The notes under the pieces are model-generated. The model searched no databases. It was not told the DNA's origin and saw only the letters and a list, made by a program, of their open reading frames with translations. A stretch of DNA of 64,000 nucleotides from Streptomyces sp. NBC_00223 (lineage in GTDB: Bacteria > Actinomycetota > Actinomycetes > Streptomycetales > Streptomycetaceae). The stretch lies in NCBI RefSeq assembly GCF_036199905.1, contig NZ_CP108109.1, positions 4,959,501 through 5,023,500 on the forward strand, in the 5' to 3' direction. Position 1 is the stretch's first letter, and each line of letters starts with the position of its first letter. Made by a program: the position numbers and the translations under genes. Positions 29,870-40,042 of the stretch are shown in pieces.

Positions 29870-31093
29870 TCACCAGTTGATGGTCAGGCGGGTCTCAGGC
29901 CGGGTAACGCGGGCGCCAAGGGCGAGTTGGTCGTCGGGTGTTACGGCGGGGTGGGCCGTGACAACGGGTTGTGCGGGCCGTTCCCGGCTCCAGCGGTGCA
30001 GGAGGTCGGACACCTGGCCGATGAGCTTGCCGCTGTCCGGGCCGTGCGCGGTGAGGCCCAGTTCGTTGGCCTCGGCGCTGACGGGGCGGGCGGTGATGTA
30101 GACGAGGGTGCCGCCCTCGTACAGGCCCGCCCCGGCCCATCGCATGGCAGGGTCGGCCAGACCGAGGGCACGGGCGGAGGAGCTGACGGACAGGCGACCG
30201 AAACACAGGCCGCTGGGGACGGTGGCGAGCCACAGGTCGAGGTGGGCGGCAGGTTCATCGTGGCGGACTTCGATCCCGGTCCACCGATCACGGGCGGGGT
30301 GGGTCAGGGCCTGGGCGAGGGCGGCCTCGTCGGGCAGGTCGTCAGCGTCGATCTTGAGGATGACCTCGTCGGCCAGGCGGACATGGCGTTCGCTCATCTC
30401 CGAGGCGCCGCGCAGGGGCACGAATCCGCAGACTTCGGCGTTCTGGCTGAGCATTCGGGCGTCTTCGGTGCGGTCGAAGGCGAGCGAGCGGGTCAGACCG
30501 CTGCCGTGCAGGCGAAGCGGCACGACCAGACGTCCGCCGATCGCGAGCTGCTGCCACCAGGCGGTGGAGATGTCCCAGGCTCCCGCGGTGACGATGATTC
30601 CGTCGAACATCCCGCCGCTGGGATCGCCGAGGGCACCGTCACCGCAGATCACTTCGACCTGGTCGTATCCGGCAGAGGCCAGGCCGATGCGGGCGCCGGC
30701 GGCGAGGTCGTCGTCGAGTTCGATGGTCACCACCGAGCCGGTCGGGCCGACCAGCTCCGCCAGGAGGGCGGCGTTGATACCGGTGGCCGTGCCGATCTCC
30801 AGGACGCGGTGGCCCCGCTGGACGTCGAGCTGTTCGAGCATGGTGGCCACCATGCTGGGGCTGGAGGCCGAGGAGATCGCGCTGCCGTCCTCGGCGCGCT
30901 TGGTCACCACGGGCTTGGGCGCGTAGGCGGTTGCCAGGTCCACGCCGGGCAGGAAGACATGCCGGGGTACGGCGCGGAAGGCGTCCCTGACCCGGGGAGT
31001 GCGGAAGCTCCCGAGGCGGTCGATCCTGGTGATGAGGGCTTCGATCAGTTCATGCGGATCGAGGGCCGCGCCGTCGGTGGGGTGCGTCGTCAC
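29870..31093 (-). CDS. PIMT-like methyltransferase, FxLD lanthipeptide system type
   Basis: 407 residues from the GTG at 31093. The N-terminus DPHELIEALI...IDRLGSFRTPRV, then FRAVPRHVFLPG, is shared by protein-L-isoaspartate methyltransferase relatives. SSASSPSMVATML (about 74-86) and the SAM motif VLEIGTATG (97-105) follow. The roughly 180-residue C-terminal extension fits the FxLD-system methyltransferases of class I lanthipeptide clusters, which methylate Asp in the peptide and lead to aspartimide or isoaspartate. The frame is open upstream to 31492 through a remnant of a thiopeptide-type biosynthesis protein. The rest of the lanthipeptide locus is broken, so this enzyme is orphaned or could act on the graspetide nearby. 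Confidence 0.75.
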   Translation of the reverse strand: MTTHPTDGAALDPHELIEALITRIDRLGSFRTPRVRDAFRAVPRHVFLPGVDLATAYAPKPVVTKRAEDGSAISSASSPSMVATMLEQLDVQRGHRVLEIGTATGINAALLAELVGPTGSVVTIELDDDLAAGARIGLASAGYDQVEVICGDGALGDPSGGMFDGIIVTAGAWDISTAWWQQLAIGGRLVVPLRLHGSGLTRSLAFDRTEDARMLSQNAEVCGFVPLRGASEMSERHVRLADEVILKIDADDLPDEAALAQALTHPARDRWTGIEVRHDEPAAHLDLWLATVPSGLCFGRLSVSSSARALGLADPAMRWAGAGLYEGGTLVYITARPVSAEANELGLTAHGPDSGKLIGQVSDLLHRWSRERPAQPVVTAHPAVTPDDQLALGARVTRPETRLTINW

Positions 31094-31346
31094 GGGCCCG
31101 ACTGTAGCGGTGCGTACAGGGTGGTTGTGGCCGCTCCGCAGCTGAGGTCCGGGTAGCGGTGCCCGGTGGAGGATCACGTGGCTCGCCGCGGCGGCCAGGG
31201 TGCCCTGGTGGGTTGCGGAGACGCCGTGCCGGTTGAAGGTGAACAGCAGATGATCGGTGAGCACGGCCCGCAGTCCTCGGGTGAGGTGCCCGTGTCTGGC
31301 CAGATCGGCGAGCGCGGCTCCAGCGCCCTCGAATGCGGCGGGCCAG
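31094..31346 (-). pseudogene. Remnant of a thiopeptide-type (split LanB C-terminal) biosynthesis protein
   Basis: Reading directly upstream of the methyltransferase gives AFEGAGAALADLARHGHL, then TRGLRAVLTDHLLFTFNR, then HGVSATHQGTLAAAAS. That matches my memory of the C-terminal end of thiopeptide-type bacteriocin biosynthesis proteins, which eliminate glutamyl-tRNA-activated Ser/Thr in split lanthipeptide dehydratases. The rest of that gene (about 250 residues) is absent. The reading continues in frame into the methyltransferase without a stop. The family call is from pattern memory. Confidence 0.55.
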
Positions 31347-31510
31347 GCCCGGGGTGCCGTAGCACCACGAGGGCCGCAGCGGCCCGTCCTGACGGGGTCG
31401 GACGGCGTGAAGTTCGGGCAGGCTGATCCGCTCGGGCCACCAGGGGCCACCAGGGGTCCGCCGGTGCCTGTTGGCGCCAGTCCTCCAGCCACCGGCCCAG
31501 GAGCTTGTCC
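31339..31510 (-). pseudogene. LanC lanthionine cyclase fragment (middle part), frameshifted
   Basis: On the minus strand the frames give WLEDWRQQAPADPWWP and then SLPELHAVRPRQ, DGPLRPSWCYGTPGLAR. PSWCYGTPG is the LanC motif containing a zinc-ligand Cys, and the PWWP segment upstream also fits streptomycete LanC proteins. The two parts lie in different frames because CCACCAGGGG is tandemly duplicated (31437-31446 and 31447-31456); removing one copy restores one frame. After LAR the homology stops and the thiopeptide-type remnant begins in a third frame. This is clear decay. Confidence 0.7.
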
Positions 31511-31663: not shown

Positions 31664-31957
31664 CTACTCCTCGCCGTCCACAGTGCCGAATTCCAGCGCA
31701 TGCACCCATGCCTGGGCCGTCGCGAGGTCGGGCGCCGTCCCGGCAGGGGTGTAGGTGAAGCCATCCCACTCCTCCAGGGCCCTGGGCTCGTCGGGCCGGA
31801 GGTGGCCGGCACCGCCGTGCAGCGGTCGGTCGCGGCGATATTGATCCAAGGGCGGGCGGCGCCGTTTCTCGTACGGCGTGAAGGGATCGGCGGGGTCGAC
31901 GTGCGGGGTGGCGCGAGACGGCTGGTTCGGTGGCCCGGGTCGGCGGTGCTTGCCCAT
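31664..31957 (-). CDS. Small hypothetical protein downstream of the graspetide regulator
   Basis: 97 residues. Pro/Arg-rich first half (GKHRRPGPP, then DPADPFTPYEKRRRP) and a more ordered end (LEEWDGFTYTP, then DLATAQAWVHALEF). It starts 13 bases after the regulator stop and is probably co-transcribed with it. The ribosome site is poor (GGAAG one base before the ATG), so translation may be coupled. I do not recognise the family. Confidence 0.55.
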   Translation of the reverse strand: MGKHRRPGPPNQPSRATPHVDPADPFTPYEKRRRPPLDQYRRDRPLHGGAGHLRPDEPRALEEWDGFTYTPAGTAPDLATAQAWVHALEFGTVDGEE

Positions 31958-31970
31958 GCTTCCGATGGTC

Positions 31971-33338
31971 TCAGGCCGCGACTGTCGTCGGCCTGGCGGC
32001 GGTGAGGTCCCTCGCCCGTCCCCGGACCTCCTCGACCAAGGGACTGCGGTAAGGACGGATGGCGTCGAGCAGGGTGTTGAGCCGGGAGGCCACGAGCGCC
32101 GAGTCGATACGGGCAGCGTCGTCCAGCGTCCGCTGGGCAGCAGTTGCGGCCTGCTCGACCTCGCCCTCGTCGAACAGCGCGGCGGCCAGCCCGACGCGGT
32201 CCATGACACGGACCCGGTCGAAGCCAGGGGCCCGCAGCTCCAGCGCGTCGTGGAAGTAGACGCTCGCGGGACTGTGGGGACGGCCGAGTGCGGCGAGGTC
32301 GCGGGCGGAGACAGCACGGGCGCCGGCGTGTTCGGCGGCGTCGAAGTACGCCACCCATGGGGGCACCTCGCCCAGGCCGTCTGCCAAAAGATCGTCGGCA
32401 GTGCCCAGATGCGTCTCGGCCTGGTGCTCATCACCGAGGGCCGCATGCACCCGGCCGGTCTGCGAGGCGAGCAGGGCCTTCACCGCAGGTCGGTCAGCCT
32501 TCGCAGCGGCCACTTCGAGGAGGCCGAGGGCATCGCGCGGGCGACCGAGGTAGATCATCTGGTGCGACATGCGGGTGACGATCTCCACCCCTCGGTCGCG
32601 CTGCCCGGCCTCGCCCGCCGCGTAGATGCCGTAGCTCCAGTAGCGCTGTGCCGTCGCATACCGGCCGCAATCGTGGCTGACCCATCCGGCGAGCGCGGCC
32701 AGGTCGGCGGTCGCGGCGAAGACCCGGGCCCGCAGGCCGGCCGGAACGCCGTCCTGAATGCGGCGGGCGACTTCGGCGAGCTGGGCGACGATCGCGGAGC
32801 GGTACAGTCCGCCGCCCTTCGTGGCGTCGGCTCGGGTGAAGAACGCGGTGACCTCTTCGAGCGCGGTGACGGTGTCGGTGCCGAATCCCTGCTGGGCCCG
32901 GTTCAAGGGCCGGGCTATGCCACCCAACATCCGCTCGGCGGCGAGGATCAGCGGGGCTCCAACAGCGAGCTTGAGGGTTTCTCGGCGGTCCATGAACAGG
33001 TCCATCTGCGTCCATCCGGCCAGAGTCTGGGCGGCTGCTTCGGTCAGCAGCGGGACTTGGATCGTATCCAGAACGGCTCCGGCCGCCGTGAGGCCGAGAT
33101 CACCGGGAGTGAGCGGCTGGCCGACCGTCTCGGAGAGCACGGCGGCGAGCAAAGCGGACACCGGAGGGCGGGGGCGTTCGCCGTCGATCCAGCGGCGGAC
33201 GCGGGTGGCGTCCGGGGTGATCTGGCGGTGACCTTGGCGAACCGCTTCGGCGGCGACCCGACGGGCGATCTCGCCGTGGGACAGGCCGGTCGCGGCGATC
33301 CACAGGGCGAGGTGCGGGTTGCTGGTCCTACTGGCCAC
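31971..33338 (-). CDS. Helix-turn-helix regulator with TPR-like body, divergent from the graspetide genes
   Basis: 455 residues from the GTG at 33338, chosen because GGGAGGG lies nine bases upstream; the open frame extends to 33509 but would invade the precursor promoter. The N-terminus (ALWIAATGLSHGEIARRV, then TRVRRWIDGERPRPP) is an XRE-like DNA-binding fold. MDRRETLKLAVG follows near residue 143. The rest is a run of alpha-helical repeats resembling TPRs (for example GRYATAQRYWSYGIYAAGEA and EVEQAATAAQRTLDDAARI). Such proteins often sit beside actinomycete RiPP genes as local regulators; the signal is unknown. Confidence 0.8.
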   Translation of the reverse strand: MASRTSNPHLALWIAATGLSHGEIARRVAAEAVRQGHRQITPDATRVRRWIDGERPRPPVSALLAAVLSETVGQPLTPGDLGLTAAGAVLDTIQVPLLTEAAAQTLAGWTQMDLFMDRRETLKLAVGAPLILAAERMLGGIARPLNRAQQGFGTDTVTALEEVTAFFTRADATKGGGLYRSAIVAQLAEVARRIQDGVPAGLRARVFAATADLAALAGWVSHDCGRYATAQRYWSYGIYAAGEAGQRDRGVEIVTRMSHQMIYLGRPRDALGLLEVAAAKADRPAVKALLASQTGRVHAALGDEHQAETHLGTADDLLADGLGEVPPWVAYFDAAEHAGARAVSARDLAALGRPHSPASVYFHDALELRAPGFDRVRVMDRVGLAAALFDEGEVEQAATAAQRTLDDAARIDSALVASRLNTLLDAIRPYRSPLVEEVRGRARDLTAARPTTVAA

Positions 33339-33493
33339 AGGTACTCGCCCTCCCGACGTGATGTCACGGAGCGTGTCTTTTCCGCGACGGTTCGCGACAC
33401 CTACGCTACTGGTCAGAGTGCGTGCGGTGGGCAGATTCTGTTCAGGCGGGAGCCGTCCGGATACCCGCCTGATGTGAAGGAAGGGGATTTCGT
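33339..33493. promoter_or_regulatory. Divergent promoter region with a hairpin at the precursor ribosome site
   Basis: 155 bases. A perfect 9-bp inverted repeat TCAGGCGGG (33442-33450) with CCCGCCTGA (33464-33472) ends a few bases before the GAAGGAAGGGG ribosome site of the precursor gene, so it could control translation or act as an operator. A shorter CGCGA-type dyad lies around 33385-33400. Base composition is less GC-rich around 33380-33445. Confidence 0.45.
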
Positions 33494-33760
33494 ATGGCGA
33501 CGCTTGCACCCGAGGCTCCGTGGGCGATGCGGCTGGTCACCGACCGGCTGCCCGTGGGCCCACCGCCGTACGCGGCAGTGACCCTGGACGGAGCCACGCA
33601 GACCGCCCGCTATACCGACGCCGCCGACCAGGTGGTGGAGATGGGTAGGCATGGCACCAACAAGACCAAGGGCACTGCCTCGGTGTCCGGCGGCGGCGAC
33701 GGGCAGAATCCGCAGCCGCAGAGCCAGGACGACAACACCACCGACTACGAGTCGGACTGA
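33494..33760 (+). CDS. tgmA: Graspetide precursor peptide (TgmA-like, ATP-grasp-modified RiPP)
   Basis: 88 residues, starting at an ATG with a GAAGGAAGGGG ribosome site. The leader has the hallmarks of the ATP-grasp-modified RiPP precursor family: PWAMRL near residues 9-14, YAAVTLDGATQTARY (26-40), and the HGTNKTKG turn (53-60). The core then offers hydroxyl and amine acceptors (T55, K57, T58, K59, T61, S63, S65), a glycine-rich loop with an Asp-Gly at 69-70, and a donor-rich tail (D79, D80, D84, E86, D88). Family members receive side-chain ester or amide links between such residues. Followed after three bases by the ATP-grasp gene. Confidence 0.85.
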   Translation: MATLAPEAPWAMRLVTDRLPVGPPPYAAVTLDGATQTARYTDAADQVVEMGRHGTNKTKGTASVSGGGDGQNPQPQSQDDNTTDYESD

Positions 33761-33763
33761 CCA

Positions 33764-34762
33764 GTGGCTCCCCTCGTTCTGGTCGTCACGTCCCTGGAGG
33801 ACGTCACCGCAGACCTGGTCATCGCCGCACTCAACAAGCGCGACGTGCCCGTTGCCCGGGTCGACCCGGCCGATATCGGGCCCGGACTGAGCTTCGGCGC
33901 CCGAATCGGCGCCGGGGTACGGGCATGGGGCGGGCGGCTGCGTACGACAAGCCGCGAGGTGGAACTGGGGGAGGTGGCGGCGGTGTACTACCGCCGCCCC
34001 ACTCCGTACTCCGCCCGGTTCGCACACCTGCCCGCCCAGCAGCGCGACTTCGCTACCACCGAGGCGCGACACGGCCTCAGCGGCATCCTGCACAGCCTGC
34101 GCGGCGCGCGGCACGTGAACCACCCGGCCGCCGTCAGCCGCGCGGACTTCAAGCCCGCCCAACTGCGACGCTTCGCCGAACTCGGTCTCATCATCCCGGC
34201 GACGCTGGTCACCAACGACGCCGAGCAGGCGCGGAAGTTCGCCGCTGAGCACGGCCGCATCATCTACAAACCGTTCCGCGGCCTGCCCGCAGGTGAGGAC
34301 GGGCACGCCGGAGCGATCTGGGCCCAGCGCGTCGATCCGGACACCTTCGACGACTCGCTCACCGTGATGCCGCACTTGTTCCAGGCCGAGGTCCCCAAGA
34401 CCGGCGACGCACGGGTCACCGTGGTCGGGCGGCAGGCGTTCGCCAGCCGGATTGAGGCGCCGGACAGCGCCCTGGACTGGCGCCGAGGCGACTGGAACAA
34501 CCTCATCCACACACCGGTCGGCGTCCCGGCGCCGATCGAGGCCGCGCTGCACAGCTACCTGGCCTCGTTCGGCCTGGCCTTCGGCTGTTTCGACTTCGCC
34601 CTCACCGGAGACGAACGGCTGCCCGAATCCTGGACGGCCATCGAATGCAATCCGAACGGGCAATGGGGCTGGCTGCCCGAAGCCCCGGCCATCACCGAGG
34701 CGTTCGCCGACATCCTGAGCAAAAAGGAAGCGACGGCCCATGACCATGCCCGCCGACCTTGA
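33764..34762 (+). CDS. tgmB: ATP-grasp ribosomal peptide maturase (TgmB-like graspetide synthetase)
   Basis: 332 residues. The N-terminal pre-ATP-grasp fold begins VLVVTSLEDVTADLVI. YYRRPTPYSARF (75-86) is typical of MvdD-like maturases. ATP-binding K169 sits in IIYKPFRG, FQAEVPKTGDARV (206-218) matches the substrate-loop and adenine region, and the metal ligands lie in FDFAL (276-280) and IECNPNGQW (293-301). The enzyme activates Asp/Glu side chains of the precursor as acyl phosphates and closes ester or amide macrocycles. The GTG start is three bases past the precursor stop, so translation is probably coupled. Confidence 0.88.
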   Translation: MAPLVLVVTSLEDVTADLVIAALNKRDVPVARVDPADIGPGLSFGARIGAGVRAWGGRLRTTSREVELGEVAAVYYRRPTPYSARFAHLPAQQRDFATTEARHGLSGILHSLRGARHVNHPAAVSRADFKPAQLRRFAELGLIIPATLVTNDAEQARKFAAEHGRIIYKPFRGLPAGEDGHAGAIWAQRVDPDTFDDSLTVMPHLFQAEVPKTGDARVTVVGRQAFASRIEAPDSALDWRRGDWNNLIHTPVGVPAPIEAALHSYLASFGLAFGCFDFALTGDERLPESWTAIECNPNGQWGWLPEAPAITEAFADILSKKEATAHDHARRP

Positions 34763-35939
34763 GACCGACGCGGCCCGCCTGCGCGAGGCCATGACGAAGT
34801 CCCTCGCCACGGATGGCGTTCTCGCCGATCCGGCTTGGCACCAGGCGGTCGAGACGGTGCCCCGGCACCGGTTCGTGCCGGGCTTCTACCTGCCCGCCAA
34901 CGAGCGTGACGGGCAGGGGATGACCGTGTGGGAGCCGGTCACCGCCGAGCTCGACTACGGCCGGTGGCTGGCTGCCGCATACTCCGACACCACGCTGATC
35001 ACCCAGTTCGACGGCGCCGAAGTGGACTGGAAGCAGCCGACCGTCCGACACGGCGGGGCCCCGACCTCGTCGTCCACCCTGCCGTCGCTCGTGCTGCGGA
35101 TGTGGGCGGACGCGGATATCACCGAGGGGAACACGGTGCTGGAGATCGGCACCGGGACCGGCTACTCCACCGCGCTCGCGTGCGAACGCCTCGGTTCCGC
35201 CAACCTCACGAGCATCGAGGTGGACCCGCACCGCCTGGGGACGGCGGCGAACGCACTGTTCGGCCTGGGCTATACCCCCACGCTCGCTGTCGCCGACGGG
35301 CTGTACGGGTACTGGCCCGAGACACCCTTTGACCGGATCGTGGCCGCGTGCTCCTTCCGCGCCGTCCCTCCGGCCCTCATCTCCCAGACCCGGCCCGGAG
35401 GGAAGATCTTGCTGACCCTCAGCGGCTGGCTCTACGGATTCGCCCGAGTCCTGCTGACCGTCGGGGGCGACGGCACTGCTGAAGGACCACTGCTGAGCGG
35501 CACCGTCTCCTTCATGTCCGCGCGCACGCATGCCGCCCCGGCGTTCGGGAACCCCGCCCACTGGGCCGCCGGCCTCCCCGAGACCGGTCGCAAGTCGAAG
35601 CACAGCCCGGAGCGGATCACCGCCGCCACAGAGGAAGCCTTCCATCTGCGGTTCCTCGCCCAAAGCGCGTCACCGAACGCACAGATGACCACGGTCGGCG
35701 AGGTGGTGCACCTCGTCGACGTCATCACCGGATCCGCCGCCACCCTCACCCCAAGCGACGGCACCTGGCAGGTACGACAAGGCGGCCCGGTCAAGCTGTG
35801 GGACCGCATCGAAACGGTCTTGAGTGCCTACGACGCGGCGGGGCGACCGGGCCCGGAGACGTTTCGGCTGCACCTCGACGACGGCGGGCAGCACCTGCGC
35901 CACCCACAGATGCCCGACCTCCCTCTGCCGAGGCCCTGA
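34740..35939 (+). CDS. tgmC: PIMT-like methyltransferase of the ATP-grasp peptide system (TgmC-like)
   Basis: 399 residues, overlapping the maturase by 23 bases, with AAGGAAG before the ATG. Related to protein-L-isoaspartate methyltransferase: VPRHRFVPGFYLP (about 40-52), TSSSTLPS (109-116), SAM motif VLEIGTGTGYST (133-144). The roughly 170-residue C-terminal extension, which ends in the trailing HLDDGGQHLRHP, marks it as the peptide-system type. In fuscimiditide-type graspetides the homologous enzyme methylates an Asp that then closes to an aspartimide. The Asp-Gly of the precursor core is the obvious candidate target (inference). Confidence 0.87.
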   Translation: MTMPADLETDAARLREAMTKSLATDGVLADPAWHQAVETVPRHRFVPGFYLPANERDGQGMTVWEPVTAELDYGRWLAAAYSDTTLITQFDGAEVDWKQPTVRHGGAPTSSSTLPSLVLRMWADADITEGNTVLEIGTGTGYSTALACERLGSANLTSIEVDPHRLGTAANALFGLGYTPTLAVADGLYGYWPETPFDRIVAACSFRAVPPALISQTRPGGKILLTLSGWLYGFARVLLTVGGDGTAEGPLLSGTVSFMSARTHAAPAFGNPAHWAAGLPETGRKSKHSPERITAATEEAFHLRFLAQSASPNAQMTTVGEVVHLVDVITGSAATLTPSDGTWQVRQGGPVKLWDRIETVLSAYDAAGRPGPETFRLHLDDGGQHLRHPQMPDLPLPRP

Positions 35940-36716: not shown

Positions 36717-37694
36717 CTAGTTGGGGACCGCCAGGAGCAGGGCGAAGCGTGAGGCGGAGTCGGTCCACCAGTGGCGGACCGTGAAGCCCCCCTCCTTCAG
36801 CTCCGCCGTCAGCGCGTCCCGCCGGAACTTGCAGGACAGCTCCGTGCGCAGATCCTCGCCCGCCGCGATGTCGAGCGACAGATCGAGATCGGGGATCTTG
36901 ACGGTCTGCGGGGCGCGGGCGCGCAGCCGCATCTCGATGCGCTCCTCGTCCGCGTTCCACAGGGCGACGTGCTCGTAGGCGTCGGGTGCGAAGTCCGCGC
37001 CGAGTTCGTGGTTGAGGACATGCAGGACGTTTCTGTTGAACTCGGCCGTGATCCCCTCCGCGTCGTCGTAGGCGCGGACCAGGACGTCCGGGTCCTTGAC
37101 CAGGTCCGCGCCGAGCAGCAGCACGTCGTCGCTGCTCAGGGTGAGTGACAGGGTGCGGTAGAAGACCTGCCGCTGAACGGTGTCGAAGTTGCCGATGGTG
37201 CTGCCGAGGAAGGCGAGCACCCGCGGCCCGGGCTCGTCGGACAGCTCGATGCCGGACTCGAAGTCGGCGACGGTCGCGGTCACCCGCAGCTCGGGGTAGT
37301 CGCGGCAGATCGCCCGGCCCGCCTCCTCCAGCGCGGACGCGCTCACGTCCAGCGGCGCGTACCGCCGGAGCGAGCCGCCCGCCGTCAGCGCGTCCAGCAG
37401 CAGCCGCGTCTTGCGGGAGGACCCCGAGCCCAGCTCGATCAGGGTGCTCGCCCGGGTCAGCGCGGCGATCTCGGGCGCCCGGCGGGTCAGGATCTCGTGC
37501 TCGGCCCGCGTCGGGTAGTACTCGGGCAGTTCGGTGATCCGCTCGAACAGCTCGCTGCCGCGCTTGTCGTAGAACCACTTCGGCGGCAGCGTGCGCGGAG
37601 CCGAGCCGAGGCCGCCGCGGACATCGGCGTGGAGGGTGTCGGTGAAGTAACCGGCGGGCAGCCGGTCGTCGAGGGTGAAGCGGCTCTCGGACAT
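36717..37694 (-). CDS. egtD: L-histidine N-alpha-methyltransferase of ergothioneine synthesis
   Basis: 325 residues from an ATG at 37694 with AAGGAG nine bases upstream. It adds three methyl groups from SAM to the histidine amino group, giving hercynine. Family marks: LPPKWFYDKRGSELFERIT, then YYPTRAEHEIL (about residues 55-65), IELGSGSSRKTRLLLDAL for SAM binding (about 83-100), and the C-terminal EERIEMRL with the family's acidic substrate-binding residue. The open frame of egtC runs into this gene without a stop, so EgtD can also be made as the C-terminal half of a fusion. Confidence 0.94.
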   Translation of the reverse strand: MSESRFTLDDRLPAGYFTDTLHADVRGGLGSAPRTLPPKWFYDKRGSELFERITELPEYYPTRAEHEILTRRAPEIAALTRASTLIELGSGSSRKTRLLLDALTAGGSLRRYAPLDVSASALEEAGRAICRDYPELRVTATVADFESGIELSDEPGPRVLAFLGSTIGNFDTVQRQVFYRTLSLTLSSDDVLLLGADLVKDPDVLVRAYDDAEGITAEFNRNVLHVLNHELGADFAPDAYEHVALWNADEERIEMRLRARAPQTVKIPDLDLSLDIAAGEDLRTELSCKFRRDALTAELKEGGFTVRHWWTDSASRFALLLAVPN

Positions 37695-38630
37695 GGGAAG
37701 CGGCTCCTTGCCTGGGGTGCGGGGGGATCGCGGCGGTACCGGCGGGCGCAGCGGCACGAGCCGTACGCCCCCGGTGGTGGCCAGCAGCAGCGAGTGGTCG
37801 GGCACCTCGCGCCACTGCCCGTACGTTCCCCCCAGCCGGTCGTACGCGCCCTCCGGCGCCTCGCCCGGCCGGTCGTACGGGAACGGCAGTGCCGCCGCGT
37901 CGTCCGGCTCGGAGGCGACCAGTACGGCCCCGGGCCCGGCCCGGTACCAGAGCGTGTCCCCCCAGGCCGTGGCGGCGACCGTACGGCCGTCGGTGAGAAG
38001 GAAGTTGAGCCGGGCGGTGGGGCGGGCCGCGGCGACCTCCCGGACCACCGCGGCCAGCGCCCCGCCCGGCGCCTCGCCCCGCCGCAGCCGGCCCGCGACC
38101 ATCGCCCACAGCAGCGCCGAGTCGCTGCGCGCCTCGGCCGCGAGCACTTCGGCCGAGGACAGCCCCGGGGTGGGCAGCCGGGTCCAGTCGGCGACGGCGC
38201 CGTTGTGACTGAACAGCCAGCGCCCGTCCCGGAAGGGCGCCGCCGCGCTCTCGTCCTGCGTGGTGCCCTCGGTGGCCGAGCGCACGGCGGCGAGTACGGC
38301 GCCGCTGCGGATCGTACGGACCAGATCCGGGACGTTCGCGTCCGCCCAGAAGGGGACGGCCCGCCGGTAGCGGGCGGGCTGCGGAAAGCCGACGTCGTCC
38401 CCGGCGGGACCCCCTACGCCGGCCGGAGACCCGGCGCCGACCGGACCCCCGGCATCGGCCGGAGCCCCGGCGCCGACCGGGTACCAGCCGAAGCCGAACC
38501 CGTCCGCGTTCACCGTCCCGTACCGCTGCCGCCGCGGCCGCCACGACTGCTCGTACAGCCCGCGCTCGGGCTCGGTGAGCAGCCGCGCCAGCGGGACCGG
38601 CGGCCCCACGTAAGCGAGATGACGGCACAT
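36717..38630 (-). CDS. egtC: EgtC glutamine-amidotransferase domain, in one frame with EgtD
   Basis: The ATG at 38630 opens an EgtC domain: MCRHLAYVGPP with catalytic Cys2, NADGFGFGWYP, and FSHNGAVADW, as in class II glutamine amidotransferases. EgtC removes the gamma-glutamyl group from the sulphoxide intermediate. A Pro/Ala/Gly insertion is present around residues 50-75. No stop follows: after about 312 residues (to 37695) the frame continues straight into egtD, giving a 637-residue EgtC-EgtD protein if read through. In other streptomycetes I recall these as separate proteins. The start overlaps the egtB stop (TGATG). Confidence 0.85.
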   Translation of the reverse strand: MCRHLAYVGPPVPLARLLTEPERGLYEQSWRPRRQRYGTVNADGFGFGWYPVGAGAPADAGGPVGAGSPAGVGGPAGDDVGFPQPARYRRAVPFWADANVPDLVRTIRSGAVLAAVRSATEGTTQDESAAAPFRDGRWLFSHNGAVADWTRLPTPGLSSAEVLAAEARSDSALLWAMVAGRLRRGEAPGGALAAVVREVAAARPTARLNFLLTDGRTVAATAWGDTLWYRAGPGAVLVASEPDDAAALPFPYDRPGEAPEGAYDRLGGTYGQWREVPDHSLLLATTGGVRLVPLRPPVPPRSPRTPGKEPLPMSESRFTLDDRLPAGYFTDTLHADVRGGLGSAPRTLPPKWFYDKRGSELFERITELPEYYPTRAEHEILTRRAPEIAALTRASTLIELGSGSSRKTRLLLDALTAGGSLRRYAPLDVSASALEEAGRAICRDYPELRVTATVADFESGIELSDEPGPRVLAFLGSTIGNFDTVQRQVFYRTLSLTLSSDDVLLLGADLVKDPDVLVRAYDDAEGITAEFNRNVLHVLNHELGADFAPDAYEHVALWNADEERIEMRLRARAPQTVKIPDLDLSLDIAAGEDLRTELSCKFRRDALTAELKEGGFTVRHWWTDSASRFALLLAVPN

Positions 38631-40042
38631 CAGCCGGCCTCCCCTGGGGCCGTGTCGCGCGCGGTGCGGAAGCCGGAGAAGATCTGCCGCCTGATGGGGT
38701 AGTCCCAGTTGCGGAACGTACCGCGCGCGGCGACCGGGTCCACTCCGAAGGCGCCGCCGCGCAGCACCTTGTAGTCGGGCCCGAAGAAGACCTCCGAGTA
38801 CTCCTTGTAGGGGAAGACGGCGAAGCCCGGGTAGGGGGAGAAGTCCGAGGACGTCCACTCCCAGACGTCGCCGACGAGCTGCCGGGCGCCGCTGGGGGCC
38901 GCGCCTGCCGGATAGGCGCCCGCGGGCGCGGGCCGCAGATGGCGCTGGCCGAGATTGGCGTGCTCGGGTCCCGGGTCGGCGTCGCCCCACGGGTAGCGGC
39001 GGGAACGGCCGGTCGCGGGGTCGTGGCGGGCGGCCTTCTCCCACTCGGCCTCGGTCGGCAGCCGCCGGCCGGCCCAGCGGGCGTAGGCGTCGGCCTCGTA
39101 CCAGCACACGTGGACCACGGGCTCGTCGCCGGGGACGGGCTCGACGTGGCCGAACCGCCGCCGGACCCAGTCGCCGCTGCCGCCGCCGTCCCGGGACCAG
39201 AACAGCGGCGCCTCAAGGCCCGCCTCCTGGACGTGGCGCCAGCCCTCGGGCGTCCACCACTTCGGGTCGCGGTAGCCGCCCGCGGCGATGAACTCCTGGT
39301 AGGCGGCGTTGGTGACCGGCACGGTGTCCAGCCAGAAGGCGGGTACGTCGACGGTGTGCGCGGGCAGTTCGTTGTCCAGCGCCCACGGATCGGTGCTGGT
39401 GCCCATGGTGAACGGACCGCCGGGGACGAGGACTTCACGCGGCAGCGCGGCGGCGCCCTCGGCCCGTGGTGGGGCGGGCGCGTCCAGTACGGGAGGGCCC
39501 TGGCGCAGCTGGTGGGTGGCGAGCATCGTCTCGTCGTGCTGCTGCTCGTGCTGGGCGAGCATCCCGAAGACGAAGGCCCCGGCGAGCAGCCGCTCGGGGT
39601 TGTCCTGGCCGGTGTCGGCCGTCGCGAGCACGTCGAGCGTCTCGGCCCGGACGGCGGCGACGTACGCGCGGGCGTCGGCGGGGCCGAGCAGCGGCAGCGC
39701 GGGACGGTCGGCGCGCGGGTGCTGGAAGGCGTCGTAGAGGTGGTCGAGGTCGGGGCGCAGTCCGGGGCGGCCGCCGGCCTCCCGGACCAGCCACAGCTCC
39801 TCCTGGTTGCCGATGTGGGCCAGGTCCCAGACCAGGGGGGACATCAGCGGGGAGTGCTGCGCGGTGAGATCGGCGTCGGTCACGGCGTCGGTGAGCGCGA
39901 GGGTCCGGCGCCGGGCGGTCTCCAGAGCGGCGAGGGCGCGCGCGGACGGGTCCGAAGGTGAACGAGGGGTGGAAGTTGCGGATGGGTCAGGGGTGATGCT
40001 GCTTCGGGCAGTGCTGTCGTACGTGGTGCGGGGGTCTGTCAC
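38630..40042 (-). CDS. egtB: Hercynine oxygenase (sulphoxide synthase)
   Basis: 470 residues from a GTG at 40042 with GGAAGG upstream. It joins hercynine with gamma-glutamylcysteine using iron and oxygen. The N-terminal DinB-like domain has the iron triad H76 (LAHIGNQEE), H165 and H169 (HEQQHDE). The C-terminal formylglycine-generating-enzyme-like domain starts near GGPFTMGTS and includes GRRLPTEAEWEKAAR and a final RGGAFGVDP...GFRTARD. A roughly 35-residue Ser/Thr/Pro-rich leader precedes the fold. It lies between egtA and egtC in the usual order. Confidence 0.95.
   Translation of the reverse strand: MTDPRTTYDSTARSSITPDPSATSTPRSPSDPSARALAALETARRRTLALTDAVTDADLTAQHSPLMSPLVWDLAHIGNQEELWLVREAGGRPGLRPDLDHLYDAFQHPRADRPALPLLGPADARAYVAAVRAETLDVLATADTGQDNPERLLAGAFVFGMLAQHEQQHDETMLATHQLRQGPPVLDAPAPPRAEGAAALPREVLVPGGPFTMGTSTDPWALDNELPAHTVDVPAFWLDTVPVTNAAYQEFIAAGGYRDPKWWTPEGWRHVQEAGLEAPLFWSRDGGGSGDWVRRRFGHVEPVPGDEPVVHVCWYEADAYARWAGRRLPTEAEWEKAARHDPATGRSRRYPWGDADPGPEHANLGQRHLRPAPAGAYPAGAAPSGARQLVGDVWEWTSSDFSPYPGFAVFPYKEYSEVFFGPDYKVLRGGAFGVDPVAARGTFRNWDYPIRRQIFSGFRTARDTAPGEAG

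Follow-up and report, generated by a model that had tools for sequence, protein, structure and literature searches.

A five-gene locus in the window, a stretch of 64,000 nucleotides of Streptomyces sp. NBC_00223 DNA, is very probably a group 13 graspetide gene cluster, whose product is predicted to be a peptide with four nested esters and an aspartimide at Asp69-Gly70. Three of the genes lie on the forward strand: the precursor peptide (88 aa, 33494–33760, ATG at 33494) matches TIGR04186 and PF14408, the ATP-grasp maturase of TgmB type (332 aa, 33764–34762) matches TIGR04187, and the PIMT-like aspartyl O-methyltransferase of TgmC type (399 aa, 34740–35939) matches TIGR04188 and PF01135. On the reverse strand are an NsdA-family TPR-like regulator (455 aa, 31971–33338, likely GTG start at 33338; NF053720) and a DUF6087 protein (97 aa, 31664–31957, ATG at 31957; PF19565), whose gene begins 13 bases downstream of the regulator gene. 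This is the arrangement that the original prediction had drawn. The precursor, maturase, methyltransferase, regulator, and small gene are all present, and reading of the frames at the locus showed that all five are open and without internal stops. As claimed, the GTG start of the maturase at 33764 lies three bases past the end of the precursor gene at 33760, the methyltransferase, with its ATG at 34740, overlaps the maturase by 23 bases, and the trio is divergent from a TPR-type regulator. A G-rich AAGGAAGGGG stretch precedes the precursor ATG. No transporter or protease genes are found within the five-gene unit, and Rfam and tRNA scans of the window gave 0 matches each.

The assignment to the aspartimidylated graspetide class, also part of the original prediction, is well supported by the family cut-offs and by the conservation of the trio in relatives. 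In a profile search, the precursor, maturase, and methyltransferase all exceed the curated NCBIfam cut-offs. The precursor scores 63.7 bits against TIGR04186 and 64.3 bits against PF14408 (cut-off 25 for each), the maturase 385.5 bits against TIGR04187 (cut-off 350), and the methyltransferase, which carries the SAM motif VLEIGTGTGYST, 425.5 bits against TIGR04188 (cut-off 380). These three NCBIfam families describe a system with a SAV_5884-type maturase and were made for such a trio, and no differences from it were found here. None of the open-licence papers searched mentioned an ATP-grasp-modified RiPP, an ATP-grasp target RiPP, or SAV_5884. Sequence relatives of the maturase with solved structures include 5ig8 (ATP grasp ligase), 7m4s (AMdnB), and 7mgv (CdnC), and the enzyme is predicted to make omega-ester cross-links. 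Group 13 graspetides, or graspimiditides, are described with the same gene architecture by Zhu and Link (PMC13001092) and Lee et al. (PMC10787088). According to these papers, the ATP-grasp enzyme first closes a stem-loop with Thr-Asp esters; a loop Asp is next methylated by the PIMT homologue and turns into an aspartimide, which later becomes mostly isoAsp. PMC13001092 cites 1326 group 13 clusters, 99% of them in Actinomycetota. The trio in the window looks like an ordinary cluster of this well-known type.

The neighborhood of the locus was followed by a genome scan with the maturase alone, and the best 80 of 421 relatives, from Streptomyces and other actinomycetes, were compared. Of these 80, 79 have a methyltransferase match after the maturase, and in 58 a precursor match ends at most 60 bases upstream of the maturase; contig ends and divergent precursors account for some of the misses. 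The regulator (at least 70% identity) stands divergently upstream in 15/80 and the DUF6087 gene beside the trio in 18/80. The trio is a unit; since so few relatives keep the regulator and the DUF6087 gene, these two are not core parts but local companions in nearer relatives. Both proteins were scanned with one extra N-terminal codon. The regulator matches NF053720 at 292.7 bits (cut-off 75), and we infer a role for it in the cluster. The small gene beside it is present as predicted, although it had been called unknown and in fact matches DUF6087 (PF19565, 38 bits, cut-off 27.1), a family for which no mention was found in the open-licence papers searched. In three of its 18 relatives, DUF6087 occurs without a regulator match that passes the cut-off.

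The precursor consists of a leader with APWAMRLVTDRLP and a core, HGTNKTKGTASVSGGGDGQNPQPQSQDDNTTDYESD, that carries five Thr/Ser residues and five acids. A protein cluster search returned 292 clusters that match it at E ≤ 0.001, and the conservation and difference counts given here were taken from the best 120 of these 292. In all 120, Thr61, Ser65, Asp69, Gly70, Asp80, Asp84, and Asp88 are identical. The remaining predicted donors are Thr55 (119/120, one Ser) and Ser63 (118/120, two Thr), and the remaining predicted acceptor is Asp79 (119/120, one Glu); Thr58 is kept in 117/120 and Glu86 in 116/120. The Asp followed by a small residue in the loop between the donor and acceptor strands is Asp69-Gly70 throughout. 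It had been considered that homologues might be conserved only by chance in the leader region; among these best 120 matches, conservation spans the core. In the leader, residues 8–11 read APWA, with Trp10 in 120/120 and Ala11 in 118/120 of the same set. The recognition motif is given as RPFG and stated to be highly conserved in PMC13003496; fuscimiditide has RPFG, whereas the leader in the window has APWA. Because PWG stands at the matching position in more distant relatives, APWA looks like a variant of the RPFG-type motif.

In the mechanism that we propose, the maturase would bind the precursor leader and link Asp side chains in the core to those of Thr/Ser by omega-esters. Four nested esters, Ser65-Asp79, Ser63-Asp80, Thr61-Asp84, and Thr55-Asp88, would form a hairpin whose stem encloses a 13-residue loop (residues 66–78). 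The methyltransferase would then recognize the cross-linked stem-loop and methylate Asp69, and the methyl ester would collapse to an aspartimide with Gly70, later to be hydrolyzed mainly to isoAsp. The protease for leader removal must come from a gene elsewhere.

From 157 distinct cores, we infer the four nested esters as the simplest model. These cores come from a count of 235 sequences, of which 230 were parsed (P0102, L108, L109, L111, and L112 were not). The last Thr/Ser-x-Thr/Ser(-x-Thr/Ser) before the loop served as donor anchor and the Asp pair as acceptor anchor. Among the 80 maturase loci, 56 entered the count; 12 gave no picked precursor ORF, and 12 with mis-picked or unrecovered precursors were dropped by hand. 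The count left out the own-genome row L001 as well as genus loci L002–L032. The places of Thr55 and Asp88 are both present in 145 of the 157 cores, both absent in nine, and mismatched in three; inspection by eye showed all three mismatches to be anchoring slips (P0067, P0159, and P0177 are mis-anchored, yet were entered as mismatches). In 28 representatives whose stem positions are under 80% alike, both places are present in 18, neither in seven, and three are mismatched (Fisher p 2e-4), counts that, like all the covariation counts here, are not independent because the sequences are related.

The outer donors and acceptors are lost jointly in shorter natural cores (L079, L081, L082, L087, P0169, and P0174), and the first four of these are short cores with three donors and three acceptors. 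Such joint natural losses yield a ring ladder that can be tested for this core type. In a short precursor from Nonomuraea cavernae (L080), no donors are left but the innermost two, the Asp pair is preceded by a Glu to give three acids, and Asp-Gly is missing; a TgmC match was looked for in the 8 kb downstream and none was seen. This locus is apparently a natural graspetide without the aspartimide step. The innermost pairings, Ser65 and Ser63 with Asp79 and Asp80, lack support from covariation because these positions are nearly invariant. P0159 has a Pro at the place of Ser63 with all acceptors retained, which speaks against the indispensability of Ser63.

A fifth ester, either Thr58-Glu86 or from Thr58 to the C-terminal carboxylate, might be added to the four-ring ladder, a possibility that we consider real but doubtful. 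An earlier count of 248 sequences, 235 of them parsed, had a less strict anchor and contained some mis-picked ORFs; among its 162 distinct cores, 118 have all five Thr/Ser and all five acids, or 119 if one core with a longer tail is added. For SsfA, PMC10787088 reports five esters, of which one probably goes to the C-terminus. The places of Thr58 and Glu86 also show some association, with a Fisher p of 3e-4 on the 157 cores and of 0.24 on the 28 representatives. However, these places are both filled in 120 of the 157 cores and both empty in ten, while 16 keep only the donor and 11 only the acceptor. Thr58-Glu86 was rejected as an obligatory ring on these counts. Thr58 and Glu86 are probably spare and not needed for the rings.

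Two general descriptions of the group speak against the four-ester model. The four solved members use Thr-Asp links according to PMC13001092, and another paper gives the loop length as 10–12 residues, whereas the prediction for the window calls for a loop of 13 residues and for Ser at two of the donor places. It seems unlikely on balance that this core type makes a ring system unlike those of the solved members as generally described, with two Ser donors beside a loop of 13 residues, Asp acceptors next to each other, Thr58 and Glu86 either unlinked or joined as an optional fifth ring, and a clade of methyltransferases that recognizes the core without the Trp of WXXXGXP.

The original prediction held that the core is unlike known examples and that both its ring pattern and its product may be new. 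The two Ser donors and the longer loop, which depart from what is generally described for the solved members, speak for it, but cores of this type are widespread in Streptomyces, and with 292 matching precursor clusters the claim is unsupported as stated; we regard a new ring pattern and product as improbable. Among the best 120 of the 292 matches, the last 36 residues differ from those of the window at one to nine positions, most commonly at four (45/120) or five (30/120). The top match among those listed is 95% identical across the full length. Matches that are 93% identical, in Streptomyces hygroscopicus and S. endocoffeicus, are annotated 'putative ATP-grasp-modified RiPP', as are many other Streptomyces matches among those listed. 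Judged by sequence comparison, the core is of a very common Streptomyces type with close copies in many Streptomyces. Albusimiditide, whose precursor is from Streptomyces albidoflavus J1074, may share the core type; its study reportedly concerned a large Streptomyces cluster and four esters. In PMC12262139 the compound is named nowhere but among the references. A search of PDB chain sequences with the precursor gave one chance-level match, to a ribosomal protein (E 1.3), and with the core no match. Because the class is well described and the core is common, the locus serves mainly as a correction and is not by itself a lead to a new product.

Within the genus of the window, the maturase is above cut-off in 22 of 35 genomes. 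Among 24 genus and own-genome loci with a script-picked upstream ORF, the core motif occurs only at the locus in the window, most other picks being other graspetide cores and some picked ORFs not being precursors. The genome that contains the window holds a second complete graspetide maturase and methyltransferase (L002, C1:2137531–2141475) with a different precursor, which has RPFG in the leader, WVTHGRP in the methyltransferase, and no Asp-Gly in the core. A third maturase is a fragment that covers the last 33 model positions beside a methyltransferase of the same type (L003, C1:4323865–4326963) and is apparently a decayed cluster.

The methyltransferase departs at one residue from a motif reported for its group. 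Graspimiditide PIMTs harbor a WXXXGXP motif near the C-terminus, as stated in PMC13001092. The corresponding place in the window is YDAAGRP (364–370), where Tyr364 stands instead of the Trp. In an alignment of 101 rows, in which the window and L001, its own copy, each count as a row, the 55 rows of at least 66% identity have Tyr (40), Phe (11), His (2), Val (1), or a gap (1) at this position and never Trp, whereas the more distant rows have Trp in 41/46. The Trp is retained in L100 and L106, whose core motif is nearly the same, so the residue at this place does not follow the core type. The locus is still filed as group 13, since WXXXGXP is a reported common feature and not the definition of the group. 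Methyltransferases of this large Streptomyces clade do not conform to the WXXXGXP statement, which bears on the role of the Trp. One might suppose that this clade no longer forms the aspartimide and that its product is a plain graspetide, because the Trp is replaced in 54 of the 55 closer rows, the other row having the gap, and because, according to PMC13001092, a Trp-to-Ala change abolished aspartimide formation in TceM. In the same paper, however, this was not the case for LihM, and the methyltransferase in the window is of full length with an intact SAM motif, while Asp69-Gly70 is invariant in the best 120 of the 292 precursor matches; loss of the aspartimide is very improbable.

An FxLD-type methyltransferase is encoded at 29870–31093 on the reverse strand (TIGR04364, 439 bits, cut-off 320). 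That it is a second tailoring enzyme of the graspetide pathway can hardly be credited. It shares the regulator's strand and sits some 570 bases past the DUF6087 gene, but it was rejected as a pathway member because 0/80 (best 80 of 421 relatives) have an FxLD match of at least 40% identity over at least 150 aa, and a lanthipeptide-type domain remnant in the same frame points to a lanthipeptide origin. The remnant matches TIGR03891 (thiopeptide-type bacteriocin, SpaB_C-like) over the last 61 of 263 positions with 34.1 bits, below the cut-off of 48.45, and shares the frame 29870–31492 on the reverse strand with the methyltransferase. Because the open frame around a TIGR04364 match in the genus is in many cases some 700 aa long or longer, this frame is probably a truncated lanthipeptide-type tailoring fusion. 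Weaker matches to the FxLD query occur in 79 of the best 80 loci, mostly on the cluster's own methyltransferase. FxLD lanthipeptide methyltransferases (TIGR04364; LanSA) have a PIMT fold with a C-terminal extension, as does the cluster methyltransferase, which scores 84.8 against TIGR04364 versus 425.5 against TIGR04188. On the other side of the cluster, egtC and egtD (ergothioneine) appear to lie in one open frame without an internal stop (36717–39107, reverse strand), and the translation holds a partial EgtC match and a full EgtD match in one stretch, a possible egtC-egtD gene fusion.

The APWA leader and the missing Trp are two small departures from general statements in the 2026 papers. 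In gene content, the cluster in the window is like those of fuscimiditide, amycolimiditide, albusimiditide, and SsfA, which likewise combine a precursor, a single ATP-grasp enzyme, and a PIMT homologue in one operon. These four also share with the window a donor- and acceptor-rich core, an Asp-Gly in the loop, and an actinomycete host.
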